Shown: positions 8,746 to 31,094, counted from the first letter of the stretch. The stretch: 64,000 bases of DNA from Gammaproteobacteria bacterium (GCA_026197075.1 JAPHQV010000015.1:62001-126000); one strand, 5' to 3'. A program made the numbers and translations. The notes: generated from the sequence alone by a model not told the origin.

Positions 8746-8762
8746 TGTAAATTTTGTTGCAA
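8746..8762. promoter_or_regulatory. Partial PrsR-type upstream motif
   Basis: TGTAAA-TTTTG-TTGCAA has the same outline (TGTnnA, 5-nt spacer, TTnnnA) as the motif before both PEP-CTERM genes, but the right half is degenerate. It lies about 110 bp upstream of the sigma-54 promoter at 8869, a usual distance for an enhancer-binding protein. Confidence 0.35.
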
Positions 8763-8868
8763 AACCTGTCCCCGTACAAAGACAATTTAGCCGTTCTTTG
8801 CCGGGTATTATCCATGTCGGTATTTCTTGCAGCCGGTAAGCCCTTGATTCGCCGTTGTCCTGATCAGT

Positions 8869-8884
8869 TGGCCCATATTTTGCT
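8869..8884 (+). promoter_or_regulatory. Sigma-54 (-24/-12) promoter for acyltransferase 2
   Basis: TGGCCCATATTTTGCT has GG and GC at exactly the required 12-bp offset and matches the consensus TGGCACGnnnnTTGCW except at two positions. The transcript would start near 8895, about 220 nt upstream of the acyltransferase ATG. The local NtrC-family activator PrsR is a plausible driver. Confidence 0.65.
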
Positions 8885-9113
8885 ACAGTATCCGAGTATA
8901 GTCTTCAAAAGAGTAGTAACCATGCAAGGGATTCGCCGCTTGACTGTGTTCAGTCCTGCCACACCGCCCGGCACCAACGACACGGGTCTTATCCTGTGAA
9001 GAGTATAGTGCCTACACTAACTCCCGCCGGGCACGCACATTTCACGCCGCCTTCTTCTCAGTCGTCCAAAACCGCCAGACCGGTCCCGCTGGTTCCTGGC
9101 ACCGGGGGTACAC

Positions 9114-9872
9114 ATGGATCGTTCGTGCATGTTTGATCATGAATACGAGGCTATTCTCGCCGACACCGACGAAGCACGGCGCATCCATCACCAGATCCGA
9201 TACCAGGTCTTTTGCGAAGAGACCGGTTTCGAGGACGGACGCGCCTTCCCATCCAACGAGGAGTTTGACCAGTGGGACCGGCACGCCGTGCCCTTCATCG
9301 TACGCACACGCCAGACACAGGAATGGGTCGCCACCCTGCGCCTGATACTGCCCCGGGCGAGCCTGCCTTCCCAGCAATTATGCATGCTCGACCGCGGCGC
9401 AATCGCCAAGATCAAACCCCATGAGGTCGGCGAGATTTCCCGCCTGTGCGTGCTCCCCACCTTCCGGTGCCGTCGTCGCGCACCGGGAAGGCGGCGCAAC
9501 GGCGTGGTGAAGCACCAGCACGAGTCGGAAATCACCCTGGGCCTGTTGCGTGCCGCTGCGGCCTACAGCCGGCGTATGAATATTCGTTACTGGTATATGC
9601 TGACCACGGGTGGGCTCGCCCGGCTCATGAACCGCATGCATCTGCCCCTGCATCCCATCGGCAGTGGTATCGAGCATCGCGGCACACGCTATCCCTTCCT
9701 GGCCCATATCGAGAAAAGCCAGGCGCGCGCAGAGAATATTTCACCGGAGTTCGCACGACTGTTCAGCCATCCCAACCCCTATATACATTACAGCGCACTC
9801 CATGATGAAGGATCCGAACCGGAACCGGCCTGGGATGAACTGGAGGGGCTGCAACTGGGTTGCATCGCCTGA
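9114..9872 (+). CDS. PEP-CTERM/exosortase-associated acyltransferase (paralogue 2)
   Basis: A 252-residue GNAT-like N-acyltransferase, a paralogue of the protein at 7766-8506. Conserved blocks are RRIHHQIRYQVFCEETGFED (about 22-41), AFPSNEEFDQWD, and the shared GEISRL at about 105-110. A basic insert (RRRAPGRRR) follows GEISRL and is followed by a hydrophobic helix and the ITLGLLRAAA segment. The chosen ATG at 9114 has no strong Shine-Dalgarno. ATG 9129 (MFDHEYE) is equally possible and would fit the family start better. It is probably transcribed from the sigma-54 promoter at 8869. It ends 10 bp before the MITE-like element. Confidence 0.88.
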   Translation: MDRSCMFDHEYEAILADTDEARRIHHQIRYQVFCEETGFEDGRAFPSNEEFDQWDRHAVPFIVRTRQTQEWVATLRLILPRASLPSQQLCMLDRGAIAKIKPHEVGEISRLCVLPTFRCRRRAPGRRRNGVVKHQHESEITLGLLRAAAAYSRRMNIRYWYMLTTGGLARLMNRMHLPLHPIGSGIEHRGTRYPFLAHIEKSQARAENISPEFARLFSHPNPYIHYSALHDEGSEPEPAWDELEGLQLGCIA

Positions 9873-9881
9873 AACAGGCCT

Positions 9882-10097
9882 CTAGGAGCCTGTCGGACTT
9901 GAGACTGATCTCGGCAACTGCTCCATGCGTTGCTCTACCTCCTGCATCCATGCAGTCGTACTGCGCCGGCGGGAGAGCGGCTCAAATTTCCCTGATTTCT
10001 CGTTGCGTAGGATCACTATGCGCCTCGAAATCATGAAAATTTGTTCTCGCTCTCCCACCTTGCTCGCTACGATCGCTCAAGTCCGACAGGCTCCTAG
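9882..10097. mobile_element. MITE-like palindromic element, 216 bp
   Basis: It is bounded by a perfect 22-bp inverted repeat at 9882-9903 and 10076-10097, starting CTAGGAGCCTGTCGGACTTG. Inside is a second inverted pair, GGGAGAGCG at 9971-9979 and CGCTCTCCC at 10048-10056, followed by imperfectly matching inward sequence (CAAATTT...TGATTTC). Nearly the whole element could therefore fold back on itself. It holds no coding frame of meaningful size and no transposase, so mobilisation in trans is the likely origin. The right terminal CTAG supplies the TAG stop of the adjacent ABC ATPase. No target-site duplication is obvious in the flanks. Confidence 0.85.
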
Positions 10098-10771
10098 CGC
10101 AACATTCCGTCTTCGATCTGTACCACCCGATCCGCCATCTCCATCACCTTCGGGTCATGGGTGGAGAAAATGAAGGTGGTACCCTTTTCGCGGTTGATGG
10201 CATGCATCAACTCCAGGATGCTGGTACCGGTCTTGTGATCCAGATTGGCAGTGGGTTCGTCGGCCAGCACGATGGCCGGACGGGCAATCAGGGCCCGGGC
10301 GATGGCCACCCGCTGGCGCTGGCCACCGCTGAGCTGGTTGGGACGGTGGGTGGCGTAATCGCCGACCCCGACCAGTTCCAGGTAGCGCTGCACCCGGGCC
10401 CGGCGCCGGGCCTTGTCGAAGCGGAACTGGAGCAGTGGGTATTCGACATTCTCCGCGGCGGACAATACCGGCAACAGGTTGAAGGTCTGGAACACAAAGC
10501 CGATCTTCCTGGCCCGCAGGTCCGCCAGTTCGTCCGGGGTCTTGCCGGCCACATCCTCCCCATCGATGAGGATGTGGCCCGTACTGGGGCTGTCGATACA
10601 ACCGATGAGATTGAGTAAGGTGGATTTACCGCTGCCAGAAGGCCCGGCGATGGCCAGGAATTCGCCCTCCTCCACATCCAGGCTGGTTTCACGCAGGGCC
10701 TGTACGCGCTGTTCGCCGAGCGCATAATCCTTGCTAACGCCTCGCACCTCAACCACTGCTGCCATGATCAT
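10094..10771 (-). CDS. LolD/MacB-type ABC transporter ATPase
   Basis: A 225-residue cytoplasmic ATPase. The Walker A motif GPSGSGKST lies at about 41-49, the Q-loop is [14 protein letters not shown] at about 92-105, the signature is [15 protein letters not shown] at about 143-157, Walker B is [12 protein letters not shown] and the H-loop is FSTHD. The [17 protein letters not shown] phrase marks the MacB/LolD/FtsE branch that partners FtsX-type permeases. It should power the two permeases at 3770-6226, from which acyltransferase genes and a MITE-like element now separate it. It is divergent from the LolA-like gene, and its TAG stop lies within the MITE end. Length and C-terminus are normal for the family, so the insertion did not obviously truncate it. 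Confidence 0.92.
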
Positions 10772-10900
10772 TCATTCATTAGTGTGAAGGGTTTCATGCT
10801 AATGGATCGAGGTAGTTTGCACAATCACACTGAAAATCCCGCCGCCCTGGCCGATAATGATTCCGAACGGTCCGGAAGACGGCATACATATGGAATACAC

Positions 10901-11650: not shown

Positions 11651-11659
11651 AATCCCGCG

Positions 11660-11674
11660 CCGACAGGCTCCTAG
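11660..11674 (-). repeat. Solo MITE end fragment (right-type)
   Basis: CCGACAGGCTCCTAG is identical to the outer 15 bases of the right end of the 9882-10097 element. Bases 11671-11673 are the stop codon TAG of the minus-strand TPR gene. It lies between convergent genes only 20 bp apart. Confidence 0.8.
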
Positions 11675-14448
11675 CGGTTCAGTTCCCGCAGCAATTCCCG
11701 CGCCGATTCCGCGAGCACGAATTGCTGATGCTCCGCCAGGAGGTTCACCAGCTCCCGCCGTGCCGCCGCCGGCTGGCCATCGTGCTGCTGCCACAAGGCA
11801 TCCAGGTAGCGTGCCTCCGGGCCGCGATGGGTGCGGATCAGGAGTTCATCGATGAAGTCCCGCGCTTCCTTCCCCTTGTCCTGGGCCAGCAAGGCGCGCA
11901 CCAGGGTATCCAGCACGTAGGGATGATCCGGCAGTGCTTCCTGGGCGCGTCGGGCATGGGCCTCCGCGCCCAGGGGATCCTCTTCCATCAGCAGGTGAGC
12001 CAGGTTGTTGAGTGCCAGCACCTGTCCGGGCGCCAGCGCGATGATCCGGCGATAGAGCTCCATGGCCTGCCGGCGCTCATCCTGTAGCAGGGCGTAATTG
12101 GCCCGCGCAAGCAGCAGATGAATATCGTCGGGATGTTCGACCGCCCAGTCCTCCAGGACGTCCACGGCCGCTTCCCGTTCACCGGCACTCCATTTCACCC
12201 CGGCCAGCTCCACCACCAGGGCGGTGGACGGTGCACGGGCCAGGGCTTCGCCATAGGCCCGGGCCGCTCGCTCAGGCTGGTTCCGGGCCATGGCGAGGGT
12301 ACCTTCCAGTACATGGGTGCGCGGATGATCCCCCAGGTCTTCCTTCAGGGATTGCAACACCCGCTCGGCCTCGACGAGATTCCGCTCCTGGACCAGGACA
12401 TGTCCCCACTCCAACCTGGCCTCGATATGACCGGGTTCCACTTCCAGGGCCCGGGCAAGCTGGCGTTTCACGCAATCACGGTCATCGGTGCGGTCACACA
12501 CCAGCGCCAGCCAGTAGTATCCCTGTCCGTGCTCCGGCACAACATCCACCAGGGCCGTGAATTCCGCCCGCGCACCGGGCCAGTTCTGGAGGGCCAGATA
12601 GGACTCGCCGACCACGGCCAGCAGGCCGGGGTTGCGGCCATGATGCTCGCGCAGTGGCAACAACAGGGTCAGCGCGCGTTCCGGTTGGCCCTTGCGTAAA
12701 TGATGGCGGGCCAGTTGGACGGAAAAATCGACCTTCCCGGGATGGGCCATGATGGCCCTGTTCAGGGTTTCCACCAGTCCCTCCTCATTGCCCGCGCGGG
12801 ATTCCAGCAAGGCCAGGTACTGGAGGGTGGGAGCATGCTCCGGGTGGGCCTTGAGGGTGTTTCCGTAATAGTCGCGGGCCGCGGCGTAATCCTTGTCCTC
12901 CATGGCCAGAACCGCCAGGCGGTGATTGGCCGCCGGGTCGCCAGGATCCAGGGTCAACGCAGCCTCGAAGGACGTCCGTGCCCCGTCCCGGTCGGCAAGA
13001 CCCAGCTGGCCCATACCCTTGAGTACCAGGGGCATGGGGGCCTCGGGATACCGCTTCGCAAACGCCTCGGCTGCCGCCACCGCCTCGCCAAAGGCACCCT
13101 GATGCAGGTGGGCCATGACCAGAATGATATCCGTCTGCGCCAACTCCGGGGAACTGGCGAGGATGTCTTCCAGCACGCGCACCCCGGCATCATAGTCACC
13201 GCCGAGCAGCATACCCAGTCCCAGCTGGGCCTGCATTTGCGGGGAATCGGGATGCAGCTCGGCGAGCTTGCGCAAATGCTCCATGGCCTCGTCGGTGCGT
13301 CCCAGCTGCATCAGGGAAGAAGCCAGCAGCAGCAAGGCACGGGTATTCTCAGGGTCACGGGCCAGGATGGGTTCCACCAGCTGCACCGCGCTATCCGCCT
13401 CGCCCCGCTGCAGGCGTGCCGTCGCCAGCAGGATGCGGCCGGGAACATAGTTGGGATTGCGGGCAAAGGCACGCGCCAGATACTGTTCCGCCTGCTGGGT
13501 ATTGCCGGCGCCCAGGTTGGCCAAGCCAAACTGCAGCACCGCATCCCGGTAGTCTTCCACCTTGCCGAGCAGGCTTTCGAAGTGAGCCCGGGCATTGCCG
13601 TAGCGCTGTTCCTGCAGGGCGAGAATCCCCTCGGCATAGTCCAGGGCCGGGTGACGCTCATTGAGCTTGCGCATCCGGTCTATATCCTGGCGTGCCTCGT
13701 CGAAGCGTCGCAGGTAGCTCAGCAGAACGGCACGTTTTTCCAGGTTGCCCAGTTGGTCACGGCGCGCACCCAAGGCCTTGCCATAGTGCTCCACCGCCGC
13801 TTCCAGATCCCTCTGGTAATGGGCGAGATCGCCGCGCAGGCTCCAGGCGGCACTGTCATCCTCTTCCAGGCGCAACGCCTCTTCCAGCAGTTGTTCCGCG
13901 CGGGAAAACTCCCGACGCACGGTGGCCACCAGGGCCTGCCCCACCAGGGGCGCCGCGGTGGCCGGGGAAAGGTCGCGGGCCCGGGCGAAGCTTTGCTCAG
14001 CCTCGCGCACCATGCCGCGACGCATATAGGCCTCACCCTGGATACCCAAGACCTCCGCCCATTGCAAATCCGTAAGCGTGGGTGGCCGCTGCACGGCAAT
14101 CACCTCATCGAATTTGCGCTGCTGATACCAGGCGCGGGCAAGCGATACCTGCAAGGCCTCCAGCGGTACGCCCAGTTGCCGGGCGTGCTGTAATTCCTTC
14201 TCGGCACTGGCCCCATCGCCGGCATCGAGATACAGCTCGCCCAGCAGCAAGCGGGCATCGGCATTATCGGGATTCTTCGCCAGGGCGTTCTTGAGCTCGA
14301 TCACCGCCGCGCGCAGTTTCCCCTGCTCCACCTGCTCACGGGCCCGGTATACATATTCCACATCACTGAGCGATTGGCCCACATCGCAGGCCGACAGCCA
14401 GACTGCCAGCGGCATCACCAGCACCAGTTTCAAGCATCGAGACTTCAT
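11671..14448 (-). CDS. prsT: PrsT-like TPR lipoprotein of the PEP-CTERM system (paralogue 1)
   Basis: A 925-residue periplasmic or outer-membrane lipoprotein. The signal peptide ends in the lipobox LSAC (Cys about 20). About 20 tandem TPR units follow from residue 33 to the C-terminus. The opening phrase AAVIELKNALAKNPDNADAR and then GASAEKELQHARQLGVP identifies the PrsT/TIGR02917 family of exosortase loci, a likely scaffold for polysaccharide or PEP-CTERM protein assembly at the envelope. A second full-length paralogue lies at 17588-20350. The stop codon comes from a solo repeat end, and the last TPR still looks complete. The gene has its own upstream spacer of 130 bp. Confidence 0.88.
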   Translation of the reverse strand: MKSRCLKLVLVMPLAVWLSACDVGQSLSDVEYVYRAREQVEQGKLRAAVIELKNALAKNPDNADARLLLGELYLDAGDGASAEKELQHARQLGVPLEALQVSLARAWYQQRKFDEVIAVQRPPTLTDLQWAEVLGIQGEAYMRRGMVREAEQSFARARDLSPATAAPLVGQALVATVRREFSRAEQLLEEALRLEEDDSAAWSLRGDLAHYQRDLEAAVEHYGKALGARRDQLGNLEKRAVLLSYLRRFDEARQDIDRMRKLNERHPALDYAEGILALQEQRYGNARAHFESLLGKVEDYRDAVLQFGLANLGAGNTQQAEQYLARAFARNPNYVPGRILLATARLQRGEADSAVQLVEPILARDPENTRALLLLASSLMQLGRTDEAMEHLRKLAELHPDSPQMQAQLGLGMLLGGDYDAGVRVLEDILASSPELAQTDIILVMAHLHQGAFGEAVAAAEAFAKRYPEAPMPLVLKGMGQLGLADRDGARTSFEAALTLDPGDPAANHRLAVLAMEDKDYAAARDYYGNTLKAHPEHAPTLQYLALLESRAGNEEGLVETLNRAIMAHPGKVDFSVQLARHHLRKGQPERALTLLLPLREHHGRNPGLLAVVGESYLALQNWPGARAEFTALVDVVPEHGQGYYWLALVCDRTDDRDCVKRQLARALEVEPGHIEARLEWGHVLVQERNLVEAERVLQSLKEDLGDHPRTHVLEGTLAMARNQPERAARAYGEALARAPSTALVVELAGVKWSAGEREAAVDVLEDWAVEHPDDIHLLLARANYALLQDERRQAMELYRRIIALAPGQVLALNNLAHLLMEEDPLGAEAHARRAQEALPDHPYVLDTLVRALLAQDKGKEARDFIDELLIRTHRGPEARYLDALWQQHDGQPAAARRELVNLLAEHQQFVLAESARELLRELNR

Positions 14449-14578: not shown

Positions 14579-15460
14579 TTATCGGAAAACATCATTTCCC
14601 AGCCCCCCCAGACGGAAGAAGATACGCATGTCATCCAGGTCGCGCCGAAAGCGGGGATGAATGCGGGTGCGCATCTCCCGCAGGGCCTCGACCTTCTCCC
14701 CGGGCAGGGTCCTGTCAGCCGTTTTTACAGCCATCAACAGGGGCACCTTGAAGGTACTGACCACCTCGACCCCGGCCGGCAACCGTTCGCGCACCAGGGC
14801 CTGGAATTCCTCCAGCAGGAAGGCCGCCCGCAAGGAACGCTCGTAGTCCAGCAACAACTGGTGAGGATCCCGGTCGCGGTTCATGTAGGCAAAAAATATA
14901 ACAGAATTCAGTGACTTGAGCCTGGTAAAATCGGCCAGGTAGAGGGCCCCGCCAGGACTCAGCACGCGGCCGATCTCGCTGAAGCACTGCTCCAGGTGCG
15001 CCAGGGTCGGCAGGTGGTGCAGGGATACGGTGCTGATCACTCCATCCACGGATTGATCTTCAAAATCAGCTAGTTTCGTGATATCCCCCACCTGGAAACG
15101 GACATTACCCACCCCACTCCGGTCCACATGGGCACGGGCCTGGTCGAGCATGGTGGCGGACATGTCGATGCCGATGAAGTCGATCTCGGGGTTCAGGGCG
15201 GCGATCTGCACCAGCTGGGTGGCGGGCCCACAGCCCAGGTCAATCACCCGGCGGCAGCCCTGCAGCACCTGCGAGGCGCGGGCCGTGTGAAACAGGTAGG
15301 AGGCAGCCAGGGTGCTATCATTGCGGCCGGTTTCCGTGAAGGCGGCCACCTGGTCGGCATCCTCCATGATGGCATCGGGCTCCGTTTCACGCGGCAGTGT
15401 CCGGGCACTGAACAGCTCCCTTAGAAAGGTGGGGGCCAGGGACAAGCGTGGTAAATCCAT
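14579..15460 (-). CDS. Class I SAM-dependent methyltransferase
   Basis: A 293-residue cytosolic Rossmann methyltransferase. Motif I is VIDLGCGPATQ at about 78-88, motif II acidic loop FIGIDMSATML at about 100-110, then VRFQVGDITKL and the post-motif DGVISTVSLHHLP. The N-terminal 60 residues include a segment (EPDAIMEDADQVAAFTETGR) seen in methyltransferases of lipid or natural-product type. The C-terminal third is probably the substrate cap. The substrate is not evident. Being between prsT and a PEP-CTERM gene suggests a link to the exosortase-dependent polymer, but this is context only. Confidence 0.8.
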   Translation of the reverse strand: MDLPRLSLAPTFLRELFSARTLPRETEPDAIMEDADQVAAFTETGRNDSTLAASYLFHTARASQVLQGCRRVIDLGCGPATQLVQIAALNPEIDFIGIDMSATMLDQARAHVDRSGVGNVRFQVGDITKLADFEDQSVDGVISTVSLHHLPTLAHLEQCFSEIGRVLSPGGALYLADFTRLKSLNSVIFFAYMNRDRDPHQLLLDYERSLRAAFLLEEFQALVRERLPAGVEVVSTFKVPLLMAVKTADRTLPGEKVEALREMRTRIHPRFRRDLDDMRIFFRLGGLGNDVFR

Positions 15461-15577: not shown

Positions 15578-15594
15578 TGTCAATGAATTTTACA
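15578..15594. promoter_or_regulatory. Inverted-repeat upstream motif (candidate PrsR site)
   Basis: TGTCAA-TGAAT-TTTACA is a 17-bp inverted repeat centred about 90 bp upstream of the sigma-54 promoter of the PEP-CTERM gene. The 14 bases TGAATTTTACAGTC (15584-15597) recur exactly at 30994-31007 before the second PEP-CTERM gene, which argues for a shared regulator. PrsR, an NtrC-type activator for this system, is the natural candidate. Confidence 0.6.
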
Positions 15595-15668: not shown

Positions 15669-15684
15669 TGGCACGATGACTGCA
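15669..15684 (+). promoter_or_regulatory. Sigma-54 (-24/-12) promoter of PEP-CTERM gene 1
   Basis: TGGCACGATGACTGCA matches 15 of 16 positions of TGGCACGnnnnTTGCA with correct spacing. The predicted start is near 15695, giving an 85-nt leader to the ATG at 15780, which has AAGGGAGAG just upstream. Confidence 0.85.
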
Positions 15685-15779: not shown

Positions 15780-16643
15780 ATGAAAAAGACACTGCTTGCA
15801 GCAGCATTATTGGCGGTCGGGGGAAGTGCTACAGCGGCTCCCTTCTACATGGACATCGGCAGCAACTTCGACGGCCAGATCGCGCCGGCCGGCGACAAGG
15901 TGTGCGACACCTGCACCTCCGTTAAGGATGAACTCACCTTCGCATACGATTCCACCACCACCATCATCGACAACGACATCAGCGGCACCATCAACGCTGG
16001 CGACACCATCATCACCGATGGCGGCCTGGCCGTGGGCGGTCTGGCCACCAACCAGGTCACCGGCTTCCTGCCCGCCGAAGTCTTCGGTGCCAACAGCGAC
16101 AATGGCTATGGCAGCAGCAACGACTGGGTGATGAGCTTCTCGATCACCGGCTTGGCTGGCGTGGTAACCGGCGTGAGCGGTGGCGTGCCCCAGTTCGCCT
16201 ATGGCCCCGGCCTGATCGAATTGTTCGTGACCTTTGATGGCTTGAGCTTCAATAACTTCATGGACATCAACGTCACCGGCGGCGGCGCCACCGGCGTGAG
16301 CACCATCCTTACCGGTACCGCCGACTTCACCGCCGTGGATGCCGGCTTCAACGACCTGTTCCACTCCGGCACCTACGACTGCCTGGGTGACGACAGCTTC
16401 TTCGGTATCTGGAGCAACTGTGGCCAAGGCGCCGGTGAAATGTTGACCATCAACTTCTTCGCCAGCTTCGACACCAACATCTTCGTCAGCGATTTCACTG
16501 ACAACGGTGACGGTACCTTCTCGCTGACCTCCAACCACGATGGCAGCGCCACGTTCGCAGTGCCCGAGCCGAGCACCCTGGCCCTGCTGGGCGGTTCCAT
16601 GCTCCTGCTGGGTGGAATGGCCCGCCGCAACAAGAAGTCCTGA
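15780..16643 (+). CDS. PEP-CTERM sorting-domain protein (substrate 1)
   Basis: A 287-residue secreted protein. ATG 15780 is chosen over the frame opening at 15702 because it follows AAGGGAGAG and begins a clean signal peptide, MKKTLLAAALLAVGGSATAA. The mature part is rich in Gly, Asp, Asn, Thr and Ser and resembles no enzyme I know. It has paired cysteines near the start (CDTC) and two further ones around 201-217. The C-terminus is a canonical PEP-CTERM signal: VPEPSTLALLGGSMLLLGG, then the basic tail RRNKKS. Exosortase XrtA would cleave near the PEP motif. A sigma-54 promoter and a strong terminator flank it, so it is monocistronic and a likely PrsR target. Confidence 0.92.
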   Translation: MKKTLLAAALLAVGGSATAAPFYMDIGSNFDGQIAPAGDKVCDTCTSVKDELTFAYDSTTTIIDNDISGTINAGDTIITDGGLAVGGLATNQVTGFLPAEVFGANSDNGYGSSNDWVMSFSITGLAGVVTGVSGGVPQFAYGPGLIELFVTFDGLSFNNFMDINVTGGGATGVSTILTGTADFTAVDAGFNDLFHSGTYDCLGDDSFFGIWSNCGQGAGEMLTINFFASFDTNIFVSDFTDNGDGTFSLTSNHDGSATFAVPEPSTLALLGGSMLLLGGMARRNKKS

Positions 16644-17587: not shown

Positions 17588-20350
17588 TCACTTCAGGGAT
17601 TCATAGAGGGTAACCGCCTCATCACGCCCTTCGAATTCCGGACTGCGCAGGGCCTGTTCCAGTTCGAGCCGGGCCTCACGGTCACGGCCAGTACGCTGCA
17701 GGGCAACCGCCGTGTGATAGCGGATCTGCGCCATATGGGGGGCCTTGAGCAGGGCCTCCTGCAAGTACACCAGGCCTTTCTGTTCCTGGCCATTACGGAC
17801 CAGGGTCCAGCCATAGGTATCCAGCACCTCGGGGCGATCCGGGCTGGACTGGTAGGCCTGCTCGGCATGCCGCAAGGCCCGCCCCGGGTCTTCCTCCAGG
17901 TACAGCCAGGCCAGGTTGTTGAGGGCAATGACGTTGCCGGGTTGCAGCTCCAGCACCTGCTCGTAGTGGGTGGCCGCCGCGGCATGATCCCCCTGACTCT
18001 GCAGCTCCATGGCCGCGCGCAGGCGTACCGCACCGTCCCGGGGCTGCTGTTGCAGCCAGGATTCCAGCAGCTCGGCCGCTTCCTCAAGGGCCCCCGCATC
18101 CTTCAACAACTGGTGGTAGCGCAGCAGGCGTACCTGGGAGGGATCACGGCCATAGGCCTTGCCGGCGCTGGCGGCGGCGGACTTCTGGTCACCCTCCCTG
18201 GCCAGCAGCTCAGCCTGCAGGGCGTGCCCCCAGGGCAGCTCGGCCCGTTGTTCCAGCAGCCGCGCGGCATAGGAGCGCGCCGCCTCCACCTCCCCGGCTT
18301 CCAGGTGAAGACTGCCCAGGCTGAACAGGGCGCCCGCATGCCCGGCCTCCAGATCCAGCACCTTGCGGAAAGAGGTGCGAGCCAGGTCGAGATCCCCCTG
18401 CTTGACCGCCGCGCTGCCCAGCAGGTAGTGCACCTGGGCATTTTCCAGCCGCAATTCCGCCAGGCGCCGGAAGGTGGCGACCCCAGCCGCATTGGAGTCC
18501 GTGGCCATTTGGGCCAGGCCCAGTACCCGCAGGGCATCGGGCTGGCTGGGCTGATGTTCACTCAGGGCACGCGCCACCTCCAGGGCCTTGAGGGGCTGGT
18601 TGCCCTGCAGGTAGTGCTCCGCCAGCAGCACGCTCGGCTTAACCGCCTGGGGATGGTGTTTACGGGCCCGCTCCAGCCACCGTTCCACCTGGTCGCGCTG
18701 ACCCTTGAGGTAGGCAAGGTCCGTCATGCCGAAAAGGGCATCGAGGCTGGTTTCGTTCGCCGCCAGTACTTCCTGGAAGCGGACCCGGGCCTGCTCCAGC
18801 TCTCCCGCAGCCATGTCCATGCGCCCCAGGTTGAGGAGCGCCGGCGGGAAACCCGGCTGCTTGTCCAGGGCGTGGTTGAAGGCCCTGCGGGCCGCATCGG
18901 TATCGCCTCTTTGCAGGTGCACGGCACCGAGGAGGTTATGGGGCATGGGATCATCGGGCCGCTTGGCCTGCAGGGTTTGCGCCGCACCCAATGCCTTGTC
19001 CATCTCCCCGTTGTTCAGGTAGGTGACCACCAGCAGGATATCCGCCTGCCATAACCCCTGACCCAGATTGACGGCGCCCTCGAGCTCATCGGTGGCCTGG
19101 CGCGTATCCCCCGCCAACAGGTGTCCAATCGCCATTTTCGTTTGTATGGCCGCGACATCGGGCGCCAGTTCCGCGGCACGTCCCAGGTACTCCAACCCCT
19201 GGTTGCTGTCCCCGCGTTCCAGGTAGGCACTGCCCAGCATGGCCAGCAACTGGGCATCCTCGGGAACCCGGGCAGCCGTGGCCTCGAGCAGCTCGATGGC
19301 GGCATCCACCTCACGTTTCTGCAGCAAGGCGGCCGCCAGCAGCTTCGCGGCCGGCGCATGCTCGGGATGGCCGGTCACGAAGGGGCGCAAATGCTGAATG
19401 GCCTGGTTGAATTGCCCTTGCTGATAGCGAATGGTGCCCATCAACAACAGGCTTGCCGAATGACCCGGCAGGCTCGCGAGGCTTTGCTGCAGGGAGGCAA
19501 TCGCCTCATCGGGCTGGCCCTTCTGGTAGGCCGAGAGGCCTTGCAGGTAACTGGCGATGGGGTGTCGCGGGGCATGGCGCAGGACCTGCTGCAGATCCCG
19601 TTCCGCCGCCTCGTGCCTGCCCTGGTCGAGGTAGATGGTGGCCCGCCCCAGGTAGGCACCCAGATGCCGCGGCTGCAGGGCCAGGGCCCGGGTGAAGCGG
19701 TCCTCCGCGGCCTCCAGCTCACCCGCCTGGCGCCGCAGCTCACCATCCAGCACCCAGGCATCCGCATGATCGTGGCTCAGCTTCAGGGCCAGGGTCAGAC
19801 GTTCCCGCGCCCCCTCGTGATCCGTTCGCCGGAACAGCAGCCGGGCCTGTCCCACCAGGCTGTCCACATGCTCCGGGTAGGCGCCCAGTGCCTCGGCATA
19901 CAGGGCTTCAGCCTGATCCAGCTCCCCCTGCATGGCAAAGGCCTGGGCGCGCAGGTAGAGGCGGTCCGCCAGGGGCTCACCCGTGAAGTCTTGGGTTTCG
20001 ATTGCCCCCAGCACCTGCTCCGTCCTGCCCTGCAACAACCAGGCCTGGCCGAGCAGCGGCAACACCGTCCGGTCCTCCACACCCAGGGCACGGGCGCGCT
20101 CCAGTTCCTTTTCCGCTGAGGCGCCCTCGCCCTGCCGCAGGTAGCTGCGCCCCAGCAGCAGGCGGGCTTGGCCGTGCTCGGGCTGGCGCTGCAGGGCGTT
20201 CTTCAACTGGATGATGGCGGCATTGATCTCGCCCTTGTCGAAGTACTGTTGGGCATCATCCAGGTAGGGATCCTCCGCCAGGGCGGTGGTACTGATGGTG
20301 ATGGTGCTGCTCAGGCAGGCCAGGAGAAGGGTACGGATCCATCGGTTCAT
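17588..20350 (-). CDS. prsT: PrsT-like TPR protein of the PEP-CTERM system (paralogue 2)
   Basis: A 920-residue periplasmic TPR protein. The signal peptide ends ...TTALA-EDP with no lipobox Cys, unlike paralogue 1. About 20 TPRs follow. The first block, AAIIQLKNALQRQPEHGQAR and GEGASAEKELERARALGVE, is shared with paralogue 1 and marks the PrsT family. The last TPR block retains the phrase VIALNNLAWLYLEEDPGRAL, closely matched by VLALNNLAHLLMEEDPLGA in paralogue 1, showing end-to-end homology. AGGA lies about 9 bases before the ATG. It lies in an operon downstream of prsR (44 bp gap) and runs into the ThiF-like gene. Confidence 0.85.
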   Translation of the reverse strand: MNRWIRTLLLACLSSTITISTTALAEDPYLDDAQQYFDKGEINAAIIQLKNALQRQPEHGQARLLLGRSYLRQGEGASAEKELERARALGVEDRTVLPLLGQAWLLQGRTEQVLGAIETQDFTGEPLADRLYLRAQAFAMQGELDQAEALYAEALGAYPEHVDSLVGQARLLFRRTDHEGARERLTLALKLSHDHADAWVLDGELRRQAGELEAAEDRFTRALALQPRHLGAYLGRATIYLDQGRHEAAERDLQQVLRHAPRHPIASYLQGLSAYQKGQPDEAIASLQQSLASLPGHSASLLLMGTIRYQQGQFNQAIQHLRPFVTGHPEHAPAAKLLAAALLQKREVDAAIELLEATAARVPEDAQLLAMLGSAYLERGDSNQGLEYLGRAAELAPDVAAIQTKMAIGHLLAGDTRQATDELEGAVNLGQGLWQADILLVVTYLNNGEMDKALGAAQTLQAKRPDDPMPHNLLGAVHLQRGDTDAARRAFNHALDKQPGFPPALLNLGRMDMAAGELEQARVRFQEVLAANETSLDALFGMTDLAYLKGQRDQVERWLERARKHHPQAVKPSVLLAEHYLQGNQPLKALEVARALSEHQPSQPDALRVLGLAQMATDSNAAGVATFRRLAELRLENAQVHYLLGSAAVKQGDLDLARTSFRKVLDLEAGHAGALFSLGSLHLEAGEVEAARSYAARLLEQRAELPWGHALQAELLAREGDQKSAAASAGKAYGRDPSQVRLLRYHQLLKDAGALEEAAELLESWLQQQPRDGAVRLRAAMELQSQGDHAAAATHYEQVLELQPGNVIALNNLAWLYLEEDPGRALRHAEQAYQSSPDRPEVLDTYGWTLVRNGQEQKGLVYLQEALLKAPHMAQIRYHTAVALQRTGRDREARLELEQALRSPEFEGRDEAVTLYESLK

Positions 20351-20394: not shown

Positions 20395-21756
20395 TTACAG
20401 GTTGATATTATGCTTTTTCACCAGGGCATAAAAAGTCGGTCGTGTGATACCCAGCAATTCGGCAGCCTGGGAAATATTACCGCCCACATGGTGCAGTGCC
20501 CGCACCAGGGCCCGGGATTCCGCCGTGTCCCGAACCTCGCGCAGATTGAAGGGCAGTGGTTCCTGATCCCCCTCGGCCGCTTTCAGCTCCAGGCCCTCCG
20601 GGGTGATCTGCTTGCCCTCGGCCATGATCACGGCCCGCTTCACGCGGTTCTCCAGTTCACGCACATTACCCGGCCAGGCATGGGCGGAAATCGCGGCCAG
20701 TGCCTCCTGGTTGAAGACCAGCCCCGGCTTGTTGTGTCTGCGCGCCTGGCTGTCGAGCAGGTGGTTGGCGATGACCACCGCCTCGCCATCCCGCTCCCGC
20801 AGGGCAGGGATACGTACCGTGACCTCACTGATGCGGTAATAGAGGTCTTCGCGGAACAGGCCCTCGGCAATACGTTGTTCCAGGTTCTGGTGGGTGGCGC
20901 AGACCACGCGCACATCCACCGGGATCTCGCTGCGTCCGCCCACCCGCACGATTACCCGCTCCTGGAGAAAGCGTAGCAGCTTGGCCTGCAGGGACATGGG
21001 CAGGTCGCCCACTTCGTCGAGGAACAGGGTGCCGCCATCGGCGTATTCGATATTGCCCCGGGTCTGTTTGCTCGCGCCGGTAAAGGCGCCCTTTTCATAA
21101 CCGAACAGTTCGCTTTCCAGCAAGGTTTCCGGGATGGCGGCACAATTGAGTGCCACCCAGTTCTTGGAAACCCGTGGGCTGAGATCATGCAGCGCCCGTG
21201 CCAGCAACTCCTTGCCGGTACCACTCTCGCCCAGCAGCAGGGTGGTGACATCGGTGGGGGCCACCTTCTCGATGGTACGGCATACTTCGAGCATCTGCGG
21301 ACTGGTGGCGATGATGCCATTGAGACCGGTCTTGTTGGCGCCCCGGCTCAGGGCCCGGTTTTCCGTTTCCAGTTCATGCAGGCGATAGGCGCGCTCCACG
21401 ATGAAGCCCAGCAACTGGGGATCCACCGGTTTTTGGCAGAACATCCAGGCACCATGGCCGATGGCCTGGACCGCGTTGTCACGGTCATTGTTGCCGGTCA
21501 CCACGATCACCTTGGTGCGCGGTGCCATGGCGAGGATCTGCTGCAGGGTGGCCAGGCCCTCGGTGGCGCCACCGGCATCCGGCGGCAGTCCCAGGTCCAG
21601 GGTCACCACCTGGGGCTCGTGGCGGCGCAGTTCGGCGATGGCGGCCTCGCGGTCCTCGGCGGTCACCACGTCGAAATCATCGAACGCCCAGCGCAATGCA
21701 CTTTGCAGACCGGGGTCGTCCTCCACCACCAGCAATTTTTTCTTGCCCGCGCTCAC
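20395..21756 (-). CDS. prsR: PEP-CTERM-associated sigma-54 response regulator PrsR
   Basis: A 453-residue NtrC-family activator. The receiver domain (about 7-120) has the acidic pair ED and phospho-acceptor Asp54 in VTLDLGLPP. The AAA+ domain has Walker A GESGTGKE at about 176-183, the sigma-54 contact loop GAFTGA at about 223-228 and Walker B GGTLFLDE at about 241-248. The Fis-type HTH (GNISQAAELLGITRPTFYAL) is at the C-terminus. Its start overlaps the prsK stop as ATGA. It should bind upstream sites and open sigma-54 promoters such as those at 8869 and 15669, controlling PEP-CTERM proteins and associated genes. The intact GAFTGA loop supports genuine sigma-54 dependence. Confidence 0.95.
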   Translation of the reverse strand: MSAGKKKLLVVEDDPGLQSALRWAFDDFDVVTAEDREAAIAELRRHEPQVVTLDLGLPPDAGGATEGLATLQQILAMAPRTKVIVVTGNNDRDNAVQAIGHGAWMFCQKPVDPQLLGFIVERAYRLHELETENRALSRGANKTGLNGIIATSPQMLEVCRTIEKVAPTDVTTLLLGESGTGKELLARALHDLSPRVSKNWVALNCAAIPETLLESELFGYEKGAFTGASKQTRGNIEYADGGTLFLDEVGDLPMSLQAKLLRFLQERVIVRVGGRSEIPVDVRVVCATHQNLEQRIAEGLFREDLYYRISEVTVRIPALRERDGEAVVIANHLLDSQARRHNKPGLVFNQEALAAISAHAWPGNVRELENRVKRAVIMAEGKQITPEGLELKAAEGDQEPLPFNLREVRDTAESRALVRALHHVGGNISQAAELLGITRPTFYALVKKHNINL

Positions 21757-23834
21757 GTTCTTGCCTCCGTGTCCAGTTCCTGCAGCTGCTCTGCCATGGC
21801 CTTGTCCAGCAGGGGGATGCGGATGGTGAACACCGTACCCTGGCCCGGCTTGCTGGCCACGGTCAGATCCCCCTGCAGGGCGCGCAGGTATTCGCGGCTG
21901 TCATAGGCACCGATCCCCATGCCCGTATCTCCCTTGGTGGTATCGAAGGGCCGGAACAAGCGCTCCCGGATGAAGGCATCGTCCATGCCCACGCCGTCGT
22001 CCTCCACGGTGATCATTGCCTGTCCCTGTTCTTCGCGCAGGCGAATCATGACATGTCCATGGCGACGGGTCGCCTCCTGGGCATTCTGCACCAGGTTTTC
22101 GATGGCGGAGGTCAGCCGGTCACGATCCGCCGTGACTTCGATGTCAGGACCATCATAGCGCCATTCGGGGCAGGGTTGCTGCTGGCAACGCTTGTCGACG
22201 ATCTCGTTCAGCAACCGTGGCAGAGACAGGGTCACCGGGATACCGCCGGCCATGCCGGTGCGCAGTAATTGCATCAGCCGCTGCATCTTGCCCACGGAGT
22301 GCTCCATGATGCGCACCGCGTCGTCGATGAAGGCCGGGTTGTGTTTGTGGCGGGCCGCGCTGCTCACCACCACGCTCTGCTGGGCAATGAGATTCTTGAT
22401 GTCATGGAGGATAAAGGCGGACAGCCGGTTGAAGCCCTCGAACTGACGCGCCTCCGCCAGGGCCTGCAGGGCCTGCATCTGCGCCAGGTGGCTGGCGGCC
22501 TGCATGGCCGCGGTCTTGAGCAGGTCACGCACTTCCCAGTCCGCCTGCACCGCAGCCCGGGGCTGGGTCAGCAGCACGAAGCCCTGCAGTTGCTCCCGGT
22601 CCGTCAGTGGCACGATCACCCAGGGTTCGGGGATCGTATCCAGCCAGGCGGGTAATTCCAGGTCCTGGTAGAAATCCGGTGTGCGGGCATACTCGTCGAG
22701 ATTCACCACCCAGCCGGAGCGTTGCAGGAAGGCCACCAGGGAGTCCAGGCCCGCGCTGGTATCCACACCCGGTTCCGGCAGGTTGAGGCGCGCTCGCAGT
22801 GACAGGCGGCCGCGTTCGTCGGCCATCCACAGCATGCCGCCCGGGCTGTCCACCAGCTCCGCAATGGCGCCGATCACGCATTCATAGGGATGATCGTCGT
22901 CCTTGCACCCGGACAGGGCATGGGTGAACTGCACCCATTCATCCCGGTAGTCATATTTGTACTGATAGAAATGCTTGTTGACCAATACCCGAAGGCGCGC
23001 CCGCAACTGGCCCGAAAACAGCATGACCAGCAGCAGTACCGCGGCACCGAACAGGAATACGGCTTGTACCAGCGTGCCCCATTCACCACCTATGGCGCGC
23101 AGGTAATAGCCCACGACGGCCATCAACAGAAGGTAGACACCGGTGCCGACCAGGGAGGCAGTGTGGTAGACCACCTTGCGTGAAACAAACATTTCGAAGG
23201 ACCATTCGGGATTGCGCGCCACGGAAATGGCGATCAGCGGCACCACCAGTGCGTGGATCACCCCCCGCGCATGCCAGAGCCCGGGACTGAGCTGGCCGAA
23301 CAACAGGCCGTGGGAATAAAGAAACAGGTCGTAGGAGAACATGCCGCCGATGCCCAGGCAGAGAAACTTGATGGACCAGCGCTGGGAAACGGGTGTGTTG
23401 CGGTAGAGCATTTCCACCAGCCACAGACCTCCCACGGCCAGGGCCAGGTAGCCGGCGAGCAGAATCCTGGAAATTTGCGGTGCGGCCAGCCAATGGGGGG
23501 ACAGGTGGGGAAACAGCACCAGGGCGGCGGCCAGGGTGTAGAGCGCCAGGGGGATGCGGGCCAGCCCGCGCTGTCCACCCTGCACCGTGGACAGCAGCTT
23601 CAACAGGAAAGCAAACCAGAGTACCGCCTTCAGCGTCTCGGCAAACTGTATCACCGTGCCCGACAGGGACAGGTGGGATTGCAGGGCCAGCACCAGGGCC
23701 CAGACCGTAGTGCCGGCACAGGCCGCCAGCAACAGTCCGCCCTGCAGGCGTCCCCGCCAGCCGGTCACCAACATCAGCGTCAGTAACAGGAAAGCCAGCG
23801 CCCCGAGAGTATAACTGATGGTTCCGATCGACAT
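21753..23834 (-). CDS. prsK: PEP-CTERM-system sensor histidine kinase PrsK
   Basis: A 693-residue inner-membrane kinase. Residues 1-290 hold about eight transmembrane helices. A GAF-like region follows at about 315-455 (VIGAIAELVDSPGGMLWMAD). The H-box is FILHDIKNLIAQQ near 480, and the catalytic domain has N-box IENLVQNAQEAT, G1 DDGVGMDD and G2 GMGIGAYDSREYL. This atypical HDIKN box and long membrane domain are those of PrsK (TIGR02916 type). It is cognate to PrsR, with which it overlaps by 4 bp. The signal sensed is unknown; the membrane domain suggests an envelope or polymer cue. Confidence 0.95.
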   Translation of the reverse strand: MSIGTISYTLGALAFLLLTLMLVTGWRGRLQGGLLLAACAGTTVWALVLALQSHLSLSGTVIQFAETLKAVLWFAFLLKLLSTVQGGQRGLARIPLALYTLAAALVLFPHLSPHWLAAPQISRILLAGYLALAVGGLWLVEMLYRNTPVSQRWSIKFLCLGIGGMFSYDLFLYSHGLLFGQLSPGLWHARGVIHALVVPLIAISVARNPEWSFEMFVSRKVVYHTASLVGTGVYLLLMAVVGYYLRAIGGEWGTLVQAVFLFGAAVLLLVMLFSGQLRARLRVLVNKHFYQYKYDYRDEWVQFTHALSGCKDDDHPYECVIGAIAELVDSPGGMLWMADERGRLSLRARLNLPEPGVDTSAGLDSLVAFLQRSGWVVNLDEYARTPDFYQDLELPAWLDTIPEPWVIVPLTDREQLQGFVLLTQPRAAVQADWEVRDLLKTAAMQAASHLAQMQALQALAEARQFEGFNRLSAFILHDIKNLIAQQSVVVSSAARHKHNPAFIDDAVRIMEHSVGKMQRLMQLLRTGMAGGIPVTLSLPRLLNEIVDKRCQQQPCPEWRYDGPDIEVTADRDRLTSAIENLVQNAQEATRRHGHVMIRLREEQGQAMITVEDDGVGMDDAFIRERLFRPFDTTKGDTGMGIGAYDSREYLRALQGDLTVASKPGQGTVFTIRIPLLDKAMAEQLQELDTEART

Positions 23835-23887: not shown

Positions 23888-25306
23888 TCAATGGGCACCT
23901 TTTCCCCACAACACCACCTCGGCGGTGGTGAGCAGGATCAGCAGATCCAGAAAGACGCCGTGGTTCTTCACATAGTACAGATCATACTGCAGCTTTTCGA
24001 AGGCATCCCGTTCCGAGGAGCCGTACTGGTAGCGGATCTGGGCCCATCCCGTGAGTCCGGGCTTGACCCGGTGACGCTCCCGGTAATAAGGGATAGTCTC
24101 ATCCAGCTGACTGACGAACTCGGGGCGCTCCGGGCGCGGTCCAACGAAGCTCATGTCACCACGCAGGACATTGAAGATCTGCGGCAGCTCATCCAATCGC
24201 ACCTTGCGAATGATGGAACCCACCCGGGTGATGCGGGCATCGTTCTTGGAAGCCCAACGCGCCACGCCGTCTTCCTCCGCCGTCACCGTCATGCTGCGAA
24301 ACTTGTAGATGGTGAACGGACGGTTGTTGAGTCCCACCCGCACCTGGCTGAACAGGATGGAACCGGCCCTGGTGTCCTCCAGGTATACCGCCAGCATCAC
24401 CAGTGCCATCAACGGCAGCAGCACCGGGAGCAACGCCAGGGCGAACACCACGTCGAAGGCCCGCTTGGAAAAGCTGCGCAGGACACCCTGGTCGAAACCG
24501 TCGGAGAGGAACATCCAGCTGGGCTGCAGGATATCCAGCAACACCTTGCCCGCCTCGCGCTCGAAGAAGCTGAGCAGGTCACAAACCTCCACGCCATCCA
24601 TCTTGCAGTCGAGAATATCATCCACCGGCATGGCATTGCGCCGATCATCCACCGCCAGCACGATCTCGTCCACCTGCATCTTGCGCACGTACTCCGGCAA
24701 GGACATGCCGAGGCTGATCACTTTTTCCTGTTCCACCCGATCCTCGTCGGGCAGGTCCTGGTCACCAGACATGTGCACATAGCCCACTACCCGAAAGCCG
24801 CGCCGGTCGGTCTGGCGCCGCAGCCGGCTGATCATGCTCGCCTTCTCTCCGGCCCCCAGCACCAGCACGCGGCGCTTGAGCAGATCCTGGTCGACGATCC
24901 TGAAGAAGTAGAAGCGCAGGGCCAACAGCAGGGGCAGCGCCACCAGCAGGGCCATGAACAGGGCGCCACGACCCAGGTAGAGGCCGGGAAACAGGTAATA
25001 GAGCAGGGTCAGGGGCACGATACTGACCAGGAAACTCGCACCCAGGCGCAGGGTCATGGCCTCCATGCCTTCGCGAAGACTGCGCTGGTACAACCCCAGG
25101 CCGATCATGGTCAGCACCACGACCAGGGCGAAGGTGATCGATTTGGGGAACAGGGGCTGCACATGCTCCCGCACCGCCGGGGTGGCGTCCAGGAAACGCA
25201 ATTCCACCCCGATATGGAAGGCGATGATCAGCAGTACCACTTCCAGCAACCCCAGCAACAGGAACTGGGTTGGAATGTAATGTTTGAAAATCCTGATGGT
25301 TGCCAT
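23888..25306 (-). CDS. XrtA-system sugar-phosphate transferase (TIGR03013-type)
   Basis: An initiating glycosyl-1-phosphate transferase of the WcaJ/WbaP polyprenol-phosphate family. It has four or five N-terminal transmembrane helices (about 15-125), a Rossmann-like domain (VLVLGAGEKASMISRL), another helix near 280-300 and the bacterial sugar transferase domain at the C-terminus. Diagnostic phrases are AFDVVFALALLPVLLPLMAL, YKFRSM, LDELPQIFNVLRGDMSFVGPR (quoted to DMSF) and VKPGLTGWAQI. ATG 25306 (MATIRIFKHYIP) is chosen; ATG 25348 is an alternative that adds 14 poorly conserved residues. It would load the first sugar of the exopolysaccharide exported by the operon at 59-3250. It heads the prsK-prsR-prsT operon. 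Confidence 0.92.
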   Translation of the reverse strand: MATIRIFKHYIPTQFLLLGLLEVVLLIIAFHIGVELRFLDATPAVREHVQPLFPKSITFALVVVLTMIGLGLYQRSLREGMEAMTLRLGASFLVSIVPLTLLYYLFPGLYLGRGALFMALLVALPLLLALRFYFFRIVDQDLLKRRVLVLGAGEKASMISRLRRQTDRRGFRVVGYVHMSGDQDLPDEDRVEQEKVISLGMSLPEYVRKMQVDEIVLAVDDRRNAMPVDDILDCKMDGVEVCDLLSFFEREAGKVLLDILQPSWMFLSDGFDQGVLRSFSKRAFDVVFALALLPVLLPLMALVMLAVYLEDTRAGSILFSQVRVGLNNRPFTIYKFRSMTVTAEEDGVARWASKNDARITRVGSIIRKVRLDELPQIFNVLRGDMSFVGPRPERPEFVSQLDETIPYYRERHRVKPGLTGWAQIRYQYGSSERDAFEKLQYDLYYVKNHGVFLDLLILLTTAEVVLWGKGAH

Positions 25307-25545
25307 GATCGAACTGCTTCCCGCGCCCACTGCCAACCTGGGCGTCATTGATTCTTGTTTCAGCGTGAATGGCGGACGGATGATCGGCGCAAGGCCCCCT
25401 GCCCTCCGTTCAGCGTATCGGCTGGCAGCCTGAAGCCTTAATTAATGAATGCATGGACGCCGGATATCCCATCGGCGCACTCCGCAACCCCGGTTTCGGG
25501 GACCCCCTATCCTGCCGCGGGCGCCAACCGGCGCCCTGAAAAAAA

Positions 25546-26040: not shown

Positions 26041-26053
26041 CCGACGGGGCAAG

Positions 26054-27285: not shown

Positions 27286-27318
27286 ATACAATACTTATAC
27301 AAGTTGTGTATCTCAAAT
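27286..27318. promoter_or_regulatory. Three 11-bp direct repeats, candidate CarH/LitR operator
   Basis: ATACAATACTT, ATACAAGTTGT and GTATCTCAAAT occupy consecutive 11-bp registers, each beginning RTAY. An inverted ATACA-AGTTG-TGTAT (27297-27311) is embedded. CarH of Thermus binds as a tetramer to 11-bp-spaced repeats. The site is 28-60 bp upstream of the regulator start codon, fitting autoregulation. A comparable trio precedes the ybgA-like gene. Confidence 0.65.
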
Positions 27319-27345
27319 ATCACGCCCCAGGAGGCGACTCGAGCC

Positions 27346-28266: not shown

Positions 28267-28274
28267 GTCCAGTC

Positions 28275-29720: not shown

Positions 29721-30688
29721 AGGGCATTGCGTAAGCCCAGTTCCCGCGGATGGGGCTGCAGGTAGACCTGGCGTGCGATATAGGGATCGGGATGACGCCG
29801 GAAATGGTGCTGCAGCATGGTCATGGGCACCACCAGCGGCACGTCACCGCGCCGGTAGGACTCGATGCTGTCGTGCAGCTCGGCCCGGTCCTCCGGGTCG
29901 ATCCGCTCGCGCAGGTAACCGGTAAGGTGCTGCAGCACGTTCACATGCCGGTTGCGGGTGGCGCGCTGGCGCAACAGCTCCATCAACCGCTCGATATAGC
30001 ACTCGGCCAGGTCCGCCAGCGGCTCCAGCCCCACACGGGCCACCAGCCGGCCCAGTTCGCGGTAGCCCTGCGGGTTGTGGGCCATGAGCACCAGCTTGTG
30101 GCAGGCATGGAAATCCACCAGGCCGGCCTTGCTGAGACCCTGCTGCCGGAAGGCGCGCCAGCGGGCATAGACATAGACGCGGGTAATGAAATTCTCGCGC
30201 AGCACGGGATCGTGCAAGCGGCCCTCCTCCTCCACTGGCAGCAGTGGCTGATGGCGTACCAGTTCATCGGCGAACAACCCGCGTCCCTGGGCATGGGGCA
30301 TGCCCTGTTCGGTGTAGACCTTCACCCGCTCGAGTCCGCAACTGGGTGATCCCTTCTTGAGGATGAAGCCGCACAGCTCATTGTGCTTACGCGCCACGCG
30401 CTCGCCATAGGCACGCAGGGGCAGGCTGTAGTCGAGATTCGGGTCGCGGGTGCCCAGGGCGCGGGGCGCCTCCGCAGTACCCACCAGGCGGATGGGCGCG
30501 CGCGGGGTGCCCATGCCCACGGCCACCTCCGGACAGAAGGGGACCAGCTGGAAATATCCGCCCAGCACATCGTCGATGAAGGCATCGCGCTTGTGGCCGC
30601 CATCGAAGCGCACCTTCGCGCCCAGCAGGCAGGCGCTGACGCCGACCGGAATCGTGTCCAGGGGAATGGCAAACCGGCTCATGTTCAT
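29717..30688 (-). CDS. ybgA: YbgA-like protein (DUF523 plus DUF1722)
   Basis: A 323-residue protein with an N-terminal DUF523 domain (VGVSACLLGAKVRFDGGHKRD, ending KKGSPSCGLERVKVY) and a C-terminal DUF1722 domain (about 190-320). ATG 30688 is chosen because GAGGAG lies 6 bases upstream. The longer frame start at 30739 would lie inside the operator-like repeats. In E. coli and many other bacteria ybgA neighbours the photolyase gene, and here it is tail-to-tail with phrB. The biochemical role is unproven; conserved cysteines in SACLLG and SCG could bind a metal cluster. The upstream CarH-like operator suggests light control. Confidence 0.88.
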   Translation of the reverse strand: MNMSRFAIPLDTIPVGVSACLLGAKVRFDGGHKRDAFIDDVLGGYFQLVPFCPEVAVGMGTPRAPIRLVGTAEAPRALGTRDPNLDYSLPLRAYGERVARKHNELCGFILKKGSPSCGLERVKVYTEQGMPHAQGRGLFADELVRHQPLLPVEEEGRLHDPVLRENFITRVYVYARWRAFRQQGLSKAGLVDFHACHKLVLMAHNPQGYRELGRLVARVGLEPLADLAECYIERLMELLRQRATRNRHVNVLQHLTGYLRERIDPEDRAELHDSIESYRRGDVPLVVPMTMLQHHFRRHPDPYIARQVYLQPHPRELGLRNAL

Positions 30689-30731
30689 CACGCGCTCCTC
30701 ATGCATGGACCACCGATGGGCCACAGCAATA

Positions 30732-30766
30732 TTGTACATATCTTATACTCGATATGTACAACTTAA
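30732..30766. promoter_or_regulatory. Palindrome and 11-bp repeats upstream of ybgA (candidate CarH operator)
   Basis: An 11-bp perfect inverted repeat, TTGTACATATC and GATATGTACAA, with an 8-bp spacer spans 30732-30761. The same stretch reads as three 11-bp registers: GTACATATCTT, ATACTCGATAT and GTACAACTTAA (30734-30766), each starting RTAC. It lies 44 bp or more upstream of the ybgA-like ATG and mirrors the site before the carH-like gene. Confidence 0.7.
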
Positions 30767-30841
30767 TTCGGGAATCCGGGTTGTGGGCCAGGCCGACATC
30801 GGCAACGCGTGGTGGAACGGTTCATTCGCGGCTTGACCATC

Positions 30842-30858
30842 TGTCCAGAATTTTTACA
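30842..30858. promoter_or_regulatory. Upstream motif, distal copy (candidate PrsR site)
   Basis: TGTCCA-GAATT-TTTACA, flanked by C and G to make CTGT...ACAG, has the same 6-5-6 architecture and right half as the motif at 15578. It is 237 bp upstream of the weak sigma-54 promoter of PEP-CTERM gene 2. Confidence 0.5.
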
Positions 30859-30987
30859 GATGCGGGTTACAACCCATCGTTCGGAAACAGCCCATTGGTG
30901 CGAACCTCAGCAAATCCCGCACGCAAAATCGCGACACAGAGCGAACAAGCCATTATTTTATCTGATAAATTTTACCGGACAGCAATA

Positions 30988-31004
30988 TCTTAGTGAATTT
31001 TACA
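30988..31004. promoter_or_regulatory. Upstream motif, proximal copy (candidate PrsR site)
   Basis: TCTTAG-TGAAT-TTTACA keeps the spacer and right half of the 15578 site exactly, while its left half is degenerate. The 14-mer TGAATTTTACAGTC at 30994-31007 is identical to that at 15584-15597. A further AAATTTTAC half-like stretch lies near 30967. The site is about 90 bp upstream of the candidate promoter, the same spacing as for PEP-CTERM gene 1. Confidence 0.55.
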
Positions 31005-31078
31005 GTCCGACCTTTCGTTAGCTGGCAGGCATCGCCAAAGACTATTAACCATATGTTATACAGTCTGTTTTCCATCGT

Positions 31079-31094
31079 TGGCACAAATTGTGTA
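31079..31094 (+). promoter_or_regulatory. Candidate weak sigma-54 promoter of PEP-CTERM gene 2
   Basis: TGGCACAAATTGTGTA has a perfect TGGCAC -24 element, but the -12 element reads GTGTA instead of TTGCA: the conserved G is kept and the C is lost. Position relative to the upstream motif matches PEP-CTERM gene 1. It may be weak or decayed. Confidence 0.4.

Follow-up and report, generated by a model that had tools for sequence, protein, structure and literature searches.

What controls the two PEP-CTERM genes of this region, and which other transcripts come under the same control? The window analyzed is a stretch of 64,000 nucleotides from Gammaproteobacteria bacterium (GCA_026197075.1), and its genes were assigned with NCBIfam profiles at their curated cut-offs. 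A regulatory module for such genes was published in 2006 (Haft 2006; PMC1569441). In that description, PEP-CTERM genes are preceded by a 17-nt motif 1 ending in TTTACA and then by a sigma-54 motif (motif 2: −24 GG, −12 GC). The spacer is 62.8 ± 10.6 nt (range 32–92 nt), the gene starts 23–221 nt downstream of motif 2, both motifs precede 99 of 167 proteobacterial PEP-CTERM genes, and the motif profile matches PrsR, PrsK, and PrsT. All three proteins are encoded by the present genome (TIGR02915, TIGR02916, and TIGR02917 over cut-off), and the window holds a Prs cluster:

11671–14448, minus strand: second prsT (TIGR02917, 635 bits)
17588–20350, minus strand: prsT (TIGR02917, 761 bits)
20395–21756, minus strand: prsR, a response regulator of the NtrC family with GAFTGA and the recognition helix ITRPTFYALVKK (TIGR02915, 701 bits; cut-off 502.6)
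21753–23834, minus strand: prsK, sensor histidine kinase (TIGR02916, 787 bits)
23888–25348, minus strand: EpsB-type glycosyltransferase of XrtA systems (TIGR03013, 571 bits)

Each of these genes, like the two acyltransferases described below, scores above its curated cut-off. The translation of prsR bears out the intact GAFTGA loop of the original prediction and, together with the full-length TIGR02915 match, shows a receiver domain and a Fis-type helix-turn-helix, the makeup of an NtrC-type sigma-54 activator. Elsewhere in the window, positions 51662–56473 hold a cluster that encodes both [NiFe]-hydrogenase subunits, large and small, together with electron-transfer subunits resembling DsrK/HmcF and TmcC.

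The clearest case for the module is the first PEP-CTERM gene, pep1:

15578–15594, plus strand: activator site of the PrsR type (Haft motif 1), TGTCAATGAATTTTACA, with a 74-nt gap to the −24 element
15669–15683, plus strand: sigma-54 −24/−12 element, TGGCACGATGACTGC, with a predicted transcription start at about 15695
15780–16643, plus strand: PepA-like PEP-CTERM gene (below the NF033554 cut-off, above that of TIGR02595)

The site scores 21.9 bits with a matrix built from the sites of other genomes. The −24/−12 element, predicted to be strong, is in fact the best sigma-54-like match among 127,972 window positions, with both the GG at −24 and the GC at −12, and the gene begins about 96 nt 3′ of it, within the published range of 23–221 nt. 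Taken jointly, site and element make up the sole outstanding pair of the window (40.5 bits; no pairs in reversed controls). In a sister species (G001) both lie in blocks without any change, while the neighboring spacer and flanks vary. The element shares TGGCAC..CTGC with the pepA promoter of Aquincola tertiaricarbonis, which was mapped by primer extension (TGGCAC / CTGCTT), depends on RpoN1, and serves a gene that adjoins prsT and has a predicted enhancer upstream (PMC9850573); that promoter belongs to another organism, however, and its dependence was demonstrated on RpoN1, not on PrsR.

The second PEP-CTERM gene is preceded by a less regular arrangement:

30842–30858, plus strand: distal activator site, TGTCCAGAATTTTTACA (20.4 bits), 220 nt from the −24 element
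30988–31004, plus strand: partial proximal activator site, TCTTAGTGAATTTTACA, overlapping a shared 14-mer at 30994, with a 74-nt gap
31079–31093, plus strand: weak −24/−12 element, TGGCACAAATTGTGT, with GG at −24 and GT, not GC, at −12
31185–32591, plus strand: PEP-CTERM gene (TIGR02595, 27.1 bits; cut-off 16)

The three 17-mers of the original prediction are all present; those at 15578 and 30842 end in TTTACA, and the copy at 30988 is partial. The −24/−12 element is indeed weak, with GT at −12, and 66 window positions score equally well. The gene starts about 91 nt 3′ of this element, again within the range of Haft, and, counted from the proximal copy, the spacer is 74 nt at both PEP-CTERM genes, inside the published 32–92 nt and in phase. 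With its partial proximal site and the GT at −12, gene 31185 fits the module less well than gene 15780.

As predicted, the 14-mer TGAATTTTACAGTC is identical upstream of both genes; the window has two copies and no more, at 15584 and 30994 on the plus strand, and each lies 85 nt, start to start, before the −24 element. The repeat is little evidence by itself, because 83 different 14-mers repeat on the plus strand of the window. It could thus be a chance repeat or the site of an unrelated regulator, in which case NtrC or some other enhancer-binding protein would act at the sigma-54 elements. The raw motif frequency would agree with this reading, and the frequency test of the original prediction, taken literally, went against that prediction: with one mismatch allowed, the 17-bp motif is found 39 times in the 2.99-Mb genome, against 42 times for the reversed control, with no enrichment. 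The signal is carried by position, not by motif frequency. What speaks against chance in the window is the identical 85-bp offset at both genes.

The genome has nine PEP-CTERM genes, and the predicted arrangement of sites before sigma-54 elements held for five of them, where the site is correctly placed before a −24/−12-like element: 15780, 31185, and those on contigs C44, C20, and C11 (C11:169401), the last three with gaps of 63–64 and 73 nt. The C11:169401 arrangement is retained in the sister species. It did not hold for the other four, where the site is poor, far, or absent: C11:58785 has a degenerate site, in phase, at 63 nt; the site of C3:94254 lies 180 nt from its −24; C3:95262 has a sigma-54 element alone; and at C3:41449 neither an activator site nor a sigma-54 element was found. 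The site is thus absent in two of the nine and poor or distant in two more.

Two readings of other sites were discarded. The site at 14713, TGTCAGCCGTTTTTACA, lies within a methyltransferase gene, and the joint scan found no sigma-54 element with it; a CRP/FNR-type reading was rejected on sequence, since the half-sites are TGTC/TTACA and not TGTGA. Outside the window, at C19:16808–16902, a PrsR-type site and TGGTGCGATTATTGC, separated by a gap of 75, stand before an operon with genes of the HPr-rel-A system (C19:16898), which encodes a secreted protein without family, a PqqD-like protein (TIGR04353), and the HprK-related kinase A (TIGR04352).

Across 369 genomes, a strict pattern (TGTC-N8-TTACA, a gap of 40–100, and TGGCRC-N5-YTGC) detected 70 pairs in 47 genomes, spread over many families, while the reversed pattern gave none. 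PrsR was above cut-off in 42 of the 47 pair-bearing genomes, compared with 106 of the 369 overall (Fisher P=8e-21, uncorrected for relatedness); the strict pattern had no match in 64 of the 106 PrsR-bearing genomes. The loci around PrsR orthologues contained 14 pairs versus one in the reversed control, and the loci of other enhancer-binding proteins contained none. At least half of the targets (36/69) were clearly PEP-CTERM by a strict regular expression. Together with the conservation in the sister species, the phased spacing described below, and published DAP-chip data, this linkage to PrsR makes the chance or unrelated-regulator reading very improbable. In the DAP-chip study, DVUA0057 of Desulfovibrio vulgaris, a predicted PEP-CTERM regulator, enriched its five predicted PEP-CTERM targets (PMC3333781); this bacterium belongs to a distant group, and the study holds no validated motif for DVUA0057.

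Control of the PEP-CTERM genes by a PrsR-type activator and sigma-54 is supported by conservation in the sister species, the repetition of the module in the genome, the co-occurrence with PrsR over the 369 genomes, and the published binding and promoter data. From its sequence, we consider it very probable that the region is a sigma-54-dependent regulatory module of an exosortase/PEP-CTERM system controlled by PrsK and PrsR. The core of this finding, a PrsR site and a sigma-54 promoter at PEP-CTERM genes, was published in 2006, and the window is a new instance of it; the original prediction of a PrsR regulon, correct for these genes, is an independent rediscovery of the Haft module rather than a new regulon, it leaves the acyltransferase gene unproven, and it has to accommodate a second PrsR.

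The distances within the strict pairs add a feature of their own. Gaps cluster at 51–53, 61–65, 72–76, 83–87, and 95–98 nt and are quantized at about 52, 63, 74, and 85 nt; the intervals 54–60 and 66–71 nt are empty, and one gap each, of 43 and 81 nt, falls outside the clusters. When each genome contributes a single site, the periodicity reaches R = 0.79, a value attained by 0 of 20,000 jittered sets, and the bootstrap period is 10.94 (95% range 10.6–11.3). The same gap classes appear among the pairs near named PrsR orthologues, a set that may overlap with the first in its genomes. Of the 69 spacers, 24 contain an IHF-like sequence, YAANNNNTTGATW with one mismatch, where shuffles give 5.2 ± 2.1, and most of these matches begin 30–34 nt before TGG; minor groups were also seen near 20–22 and 43–45 nt before TGG, again about one helical turn apart. 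We read these data as indicating that PrsR acts from one helix face, across a bend that may often be set by IHF. The helical phasing of the PrsR site with its promoter, a computational result, appears to be new: Haft describes the spacer by its mean, spread, and range, and in the section consulted we saw nothing on a helical phase, on sequences resembling IHF sites, on non-coding targets, or on a genome having two classes of PrsR; nor did a literature search, mostly outside subscription journals, find a published account of PrsR phasing.

Whether the module extends to the acyltransferase genes is more doubtful. The features concerned are:

7766–8506, minus strand: second exosortase-associated acyltransferase, divergent (TIGR03694, 243.4 bits)
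8746–8762, minus strand: inverted, poor activator-like site, TTGCAACAAAATTTACA (5.1 bits, versus 21.9 at 15578)
8869–8883, plus strand: sigma-54-like element before the acyltransferase gene, TGGCCCATATTTTGC, a candidate regulon member
9114–9872, plus strand: PEP-CTERM/exosortase-associated acyltransferase (TIGR03694, 164.6 bits; cut-off 111.95)

The original prediction placed a −24/−12 element before gene 9114, and this much is plausible: TGGCCCATATTTTGC is equaled by six window positions and shares its core with the sister-species sequence. The activator site is where the case falls short, as the matrix scan found no acceptable motif 1 in normal orientation upstream of 9114, and the only activator-like sequence is the inverted one at 8746. 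Membership of the regulon through that site would draw on the retained sigma-54-like core, on the 106-nt gap, which would be in phase, and on the fact that acyltransferases of the TIGR03694 family accompany exosortase systems. We nevertheless regard it as unlikely, given 5.1 bits where good sites score 20–22, and a site half that reads TTGCAA here and CTGCAA in the sister species.

A separate question is which activator occupies the sites. A second PrsR, which also passes TIGR02915, is encoded on contig C3 with its own prsK and prsT (3541–9876 of C3:1–20000), adjoining an exosortase-like gene called by eye. Its recognition helix differs, with RPTMYDL in place of the RPTFYAL of the window PrsR. 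With two paralogues, and perhaps two subclasses of sites, membership of the regulon cannot be assigned to the window PrsR alone, and the activator at each site is not necessarily that protein. The sites might be read by the C3 PrsR, or by both paralogues with differing preferences, the window protein taking TGTCAA sites and VPEP genes and the C3 protein TGTCGA sites, VPVPA genes, and the candidate small RNA described below. Among single-PrsR genomes, base 5 of the site is G in 22 of 23 cases where Asp follows the Tyr, and A in 6 of 14 where another residue does (P=0.007, uncorrected for relatedness); in the present genome TCAA is found at VPEP genes and TCGA at VPVPA genes. This covariation is suggestive of a paralogue-specific preference and no proof of it: the numbers are small, several non-Asp genomes still use G at base 5, and G140 and G376, which have both paralogues, yielded no TCAA site by strict search. 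We give this reading somewhat less than an even chance, and retain the window PrsR as the presumed activator of the window genes.

One further pair of this genome, with a 74-nt gap (C15:8279–8579), faces no gene. Some 158 nt downstream of the start lies a strong terminator, and immediately beyond it comes the 3′ end of ffh, which is convergent. The same module lies between ffh and rpsP, with gaps of 62 and 73–76, in 10 genomes of three families:

ffh-side module, own family: this genome, G001, G003, and G005
ffh-side module, second family: G140, G254, and G350
ffh-side module, third family: G171, G281, and G376

A DNA search for the candidate small RNA among 144 relatives reached only the two species of the genus and, over 53 bases, a third genome; the units of further genomes were found by synteny with ffh (stretches L184 and L190, own C15; L179, L207, L255, L259, L269, L283, L284, L294, and L327). 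They span 158–200 nt. A terminator aimed at ffh was detected in four of the five module-bearing flanks scanned automatically and in none of 94 other ffh flanks; the fifth, in G254, has an imperfect terminator by eye. PrsR is over cut-off in 8 of the 10 genomes; G281 has none at the threshold used, and G001, which has PEP-CTERM genes, was outside the PrsR search.

Within the ten units AAnAAnAA occurs 21 times, compared with 1.55 ± 1.35 in shuffles, and a GGAGGAGTCACCC-like box recurs. No start codon was seen at a consistent place after this box, and the unit is for that reason read as non-coding. In Rfam, the only match was a weak, partial, sub-threshold one to CrcZ (RF01675) in G376 (19.5 bits; gathering 95), and L184, L179, and L207 had none. 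With z = −1.64, the G000 RNA does not fold with convincing stability, and no structure is claimed. On these computational data, we read the unit as a previously unreported, apparently non-coding sRNA that would be driven by PrsR and sigma-54. CrcZ is a sigma-54-driven small RNA rich in AAnAAnAA, and the ffh-side RNA resembles the CbrB/sigma-54/CrcZ system of Pseudomonas (RF01675) as a putative sigma-54-driven RNA with the same repeat, but is shorter, lies at another locus, and has a PrsR-type site in place of the CbrB site.

Apart from the ffh loci, a PrsR/sigma-54 pair of G384 (C7 3216–3322, minus strand; L362) precedes a stretch that is rich in A, includes AACAACAA, and has a terminator; it resembles the ffh-side units in makeup and is likewise apparently non-coding. 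Downstream of further pairs in G329 (L256), G229 (L257), and G112 (L228) come short stretches that have a terminator but no clear gene, and the pairs of G329 and G229 share a contig with prsR.

In the mechanism that we propose, phosphorylated PrsR, presumably the window protein rather than its paralogue, would bind the 17-bp imperfect dyad TGTC[A/G]R-N5-YTTACA. The DNA between the site and the −24 would bend, often perhaps with the help of IHF, and bring the AAA+ hexamer, placed on the right helix face, to the sigma-54 RNA polymerase at TGGCAC-N5-YTGC. The promoter of 15780 would thereby be opened and, less certainly, that of 31185; the acyltransferase gene may be a further member. In three families the module may also drive the terminator-bearing small RNA beside ffh, which could serve as an Hfq-binding decoy, as CrcZ does for CbrB; alternatively, CsrA might bind its GGA box. 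On balance, we lean slightly toward the full picture, in which PrsR, from a site on one helix face, and sigma-54 drive the exosortase substrates plus an undescribed ffh–rpsP sRNA, whose AAnAAnAA repeats would mark it as a ligand of the Hfq distal face or a CrcZ-like decoy and which carries the GGAGGAGTCACCC box, coupling the surface-protein program to post-transcriptional control.

The window is a clean instance of a published, little-tested regulon, and the spacing rule predicts which spacer insertions would kill or spare the promoter. The candidate small RNA is covered by no Rfam family, and because this genome encodes two PrsR paralogues, their site preferences can be set side by side. If true, a PrsR-driven RNA would offer a route to understanding why exosortase substrates switch together with exopolysaccharide genes.
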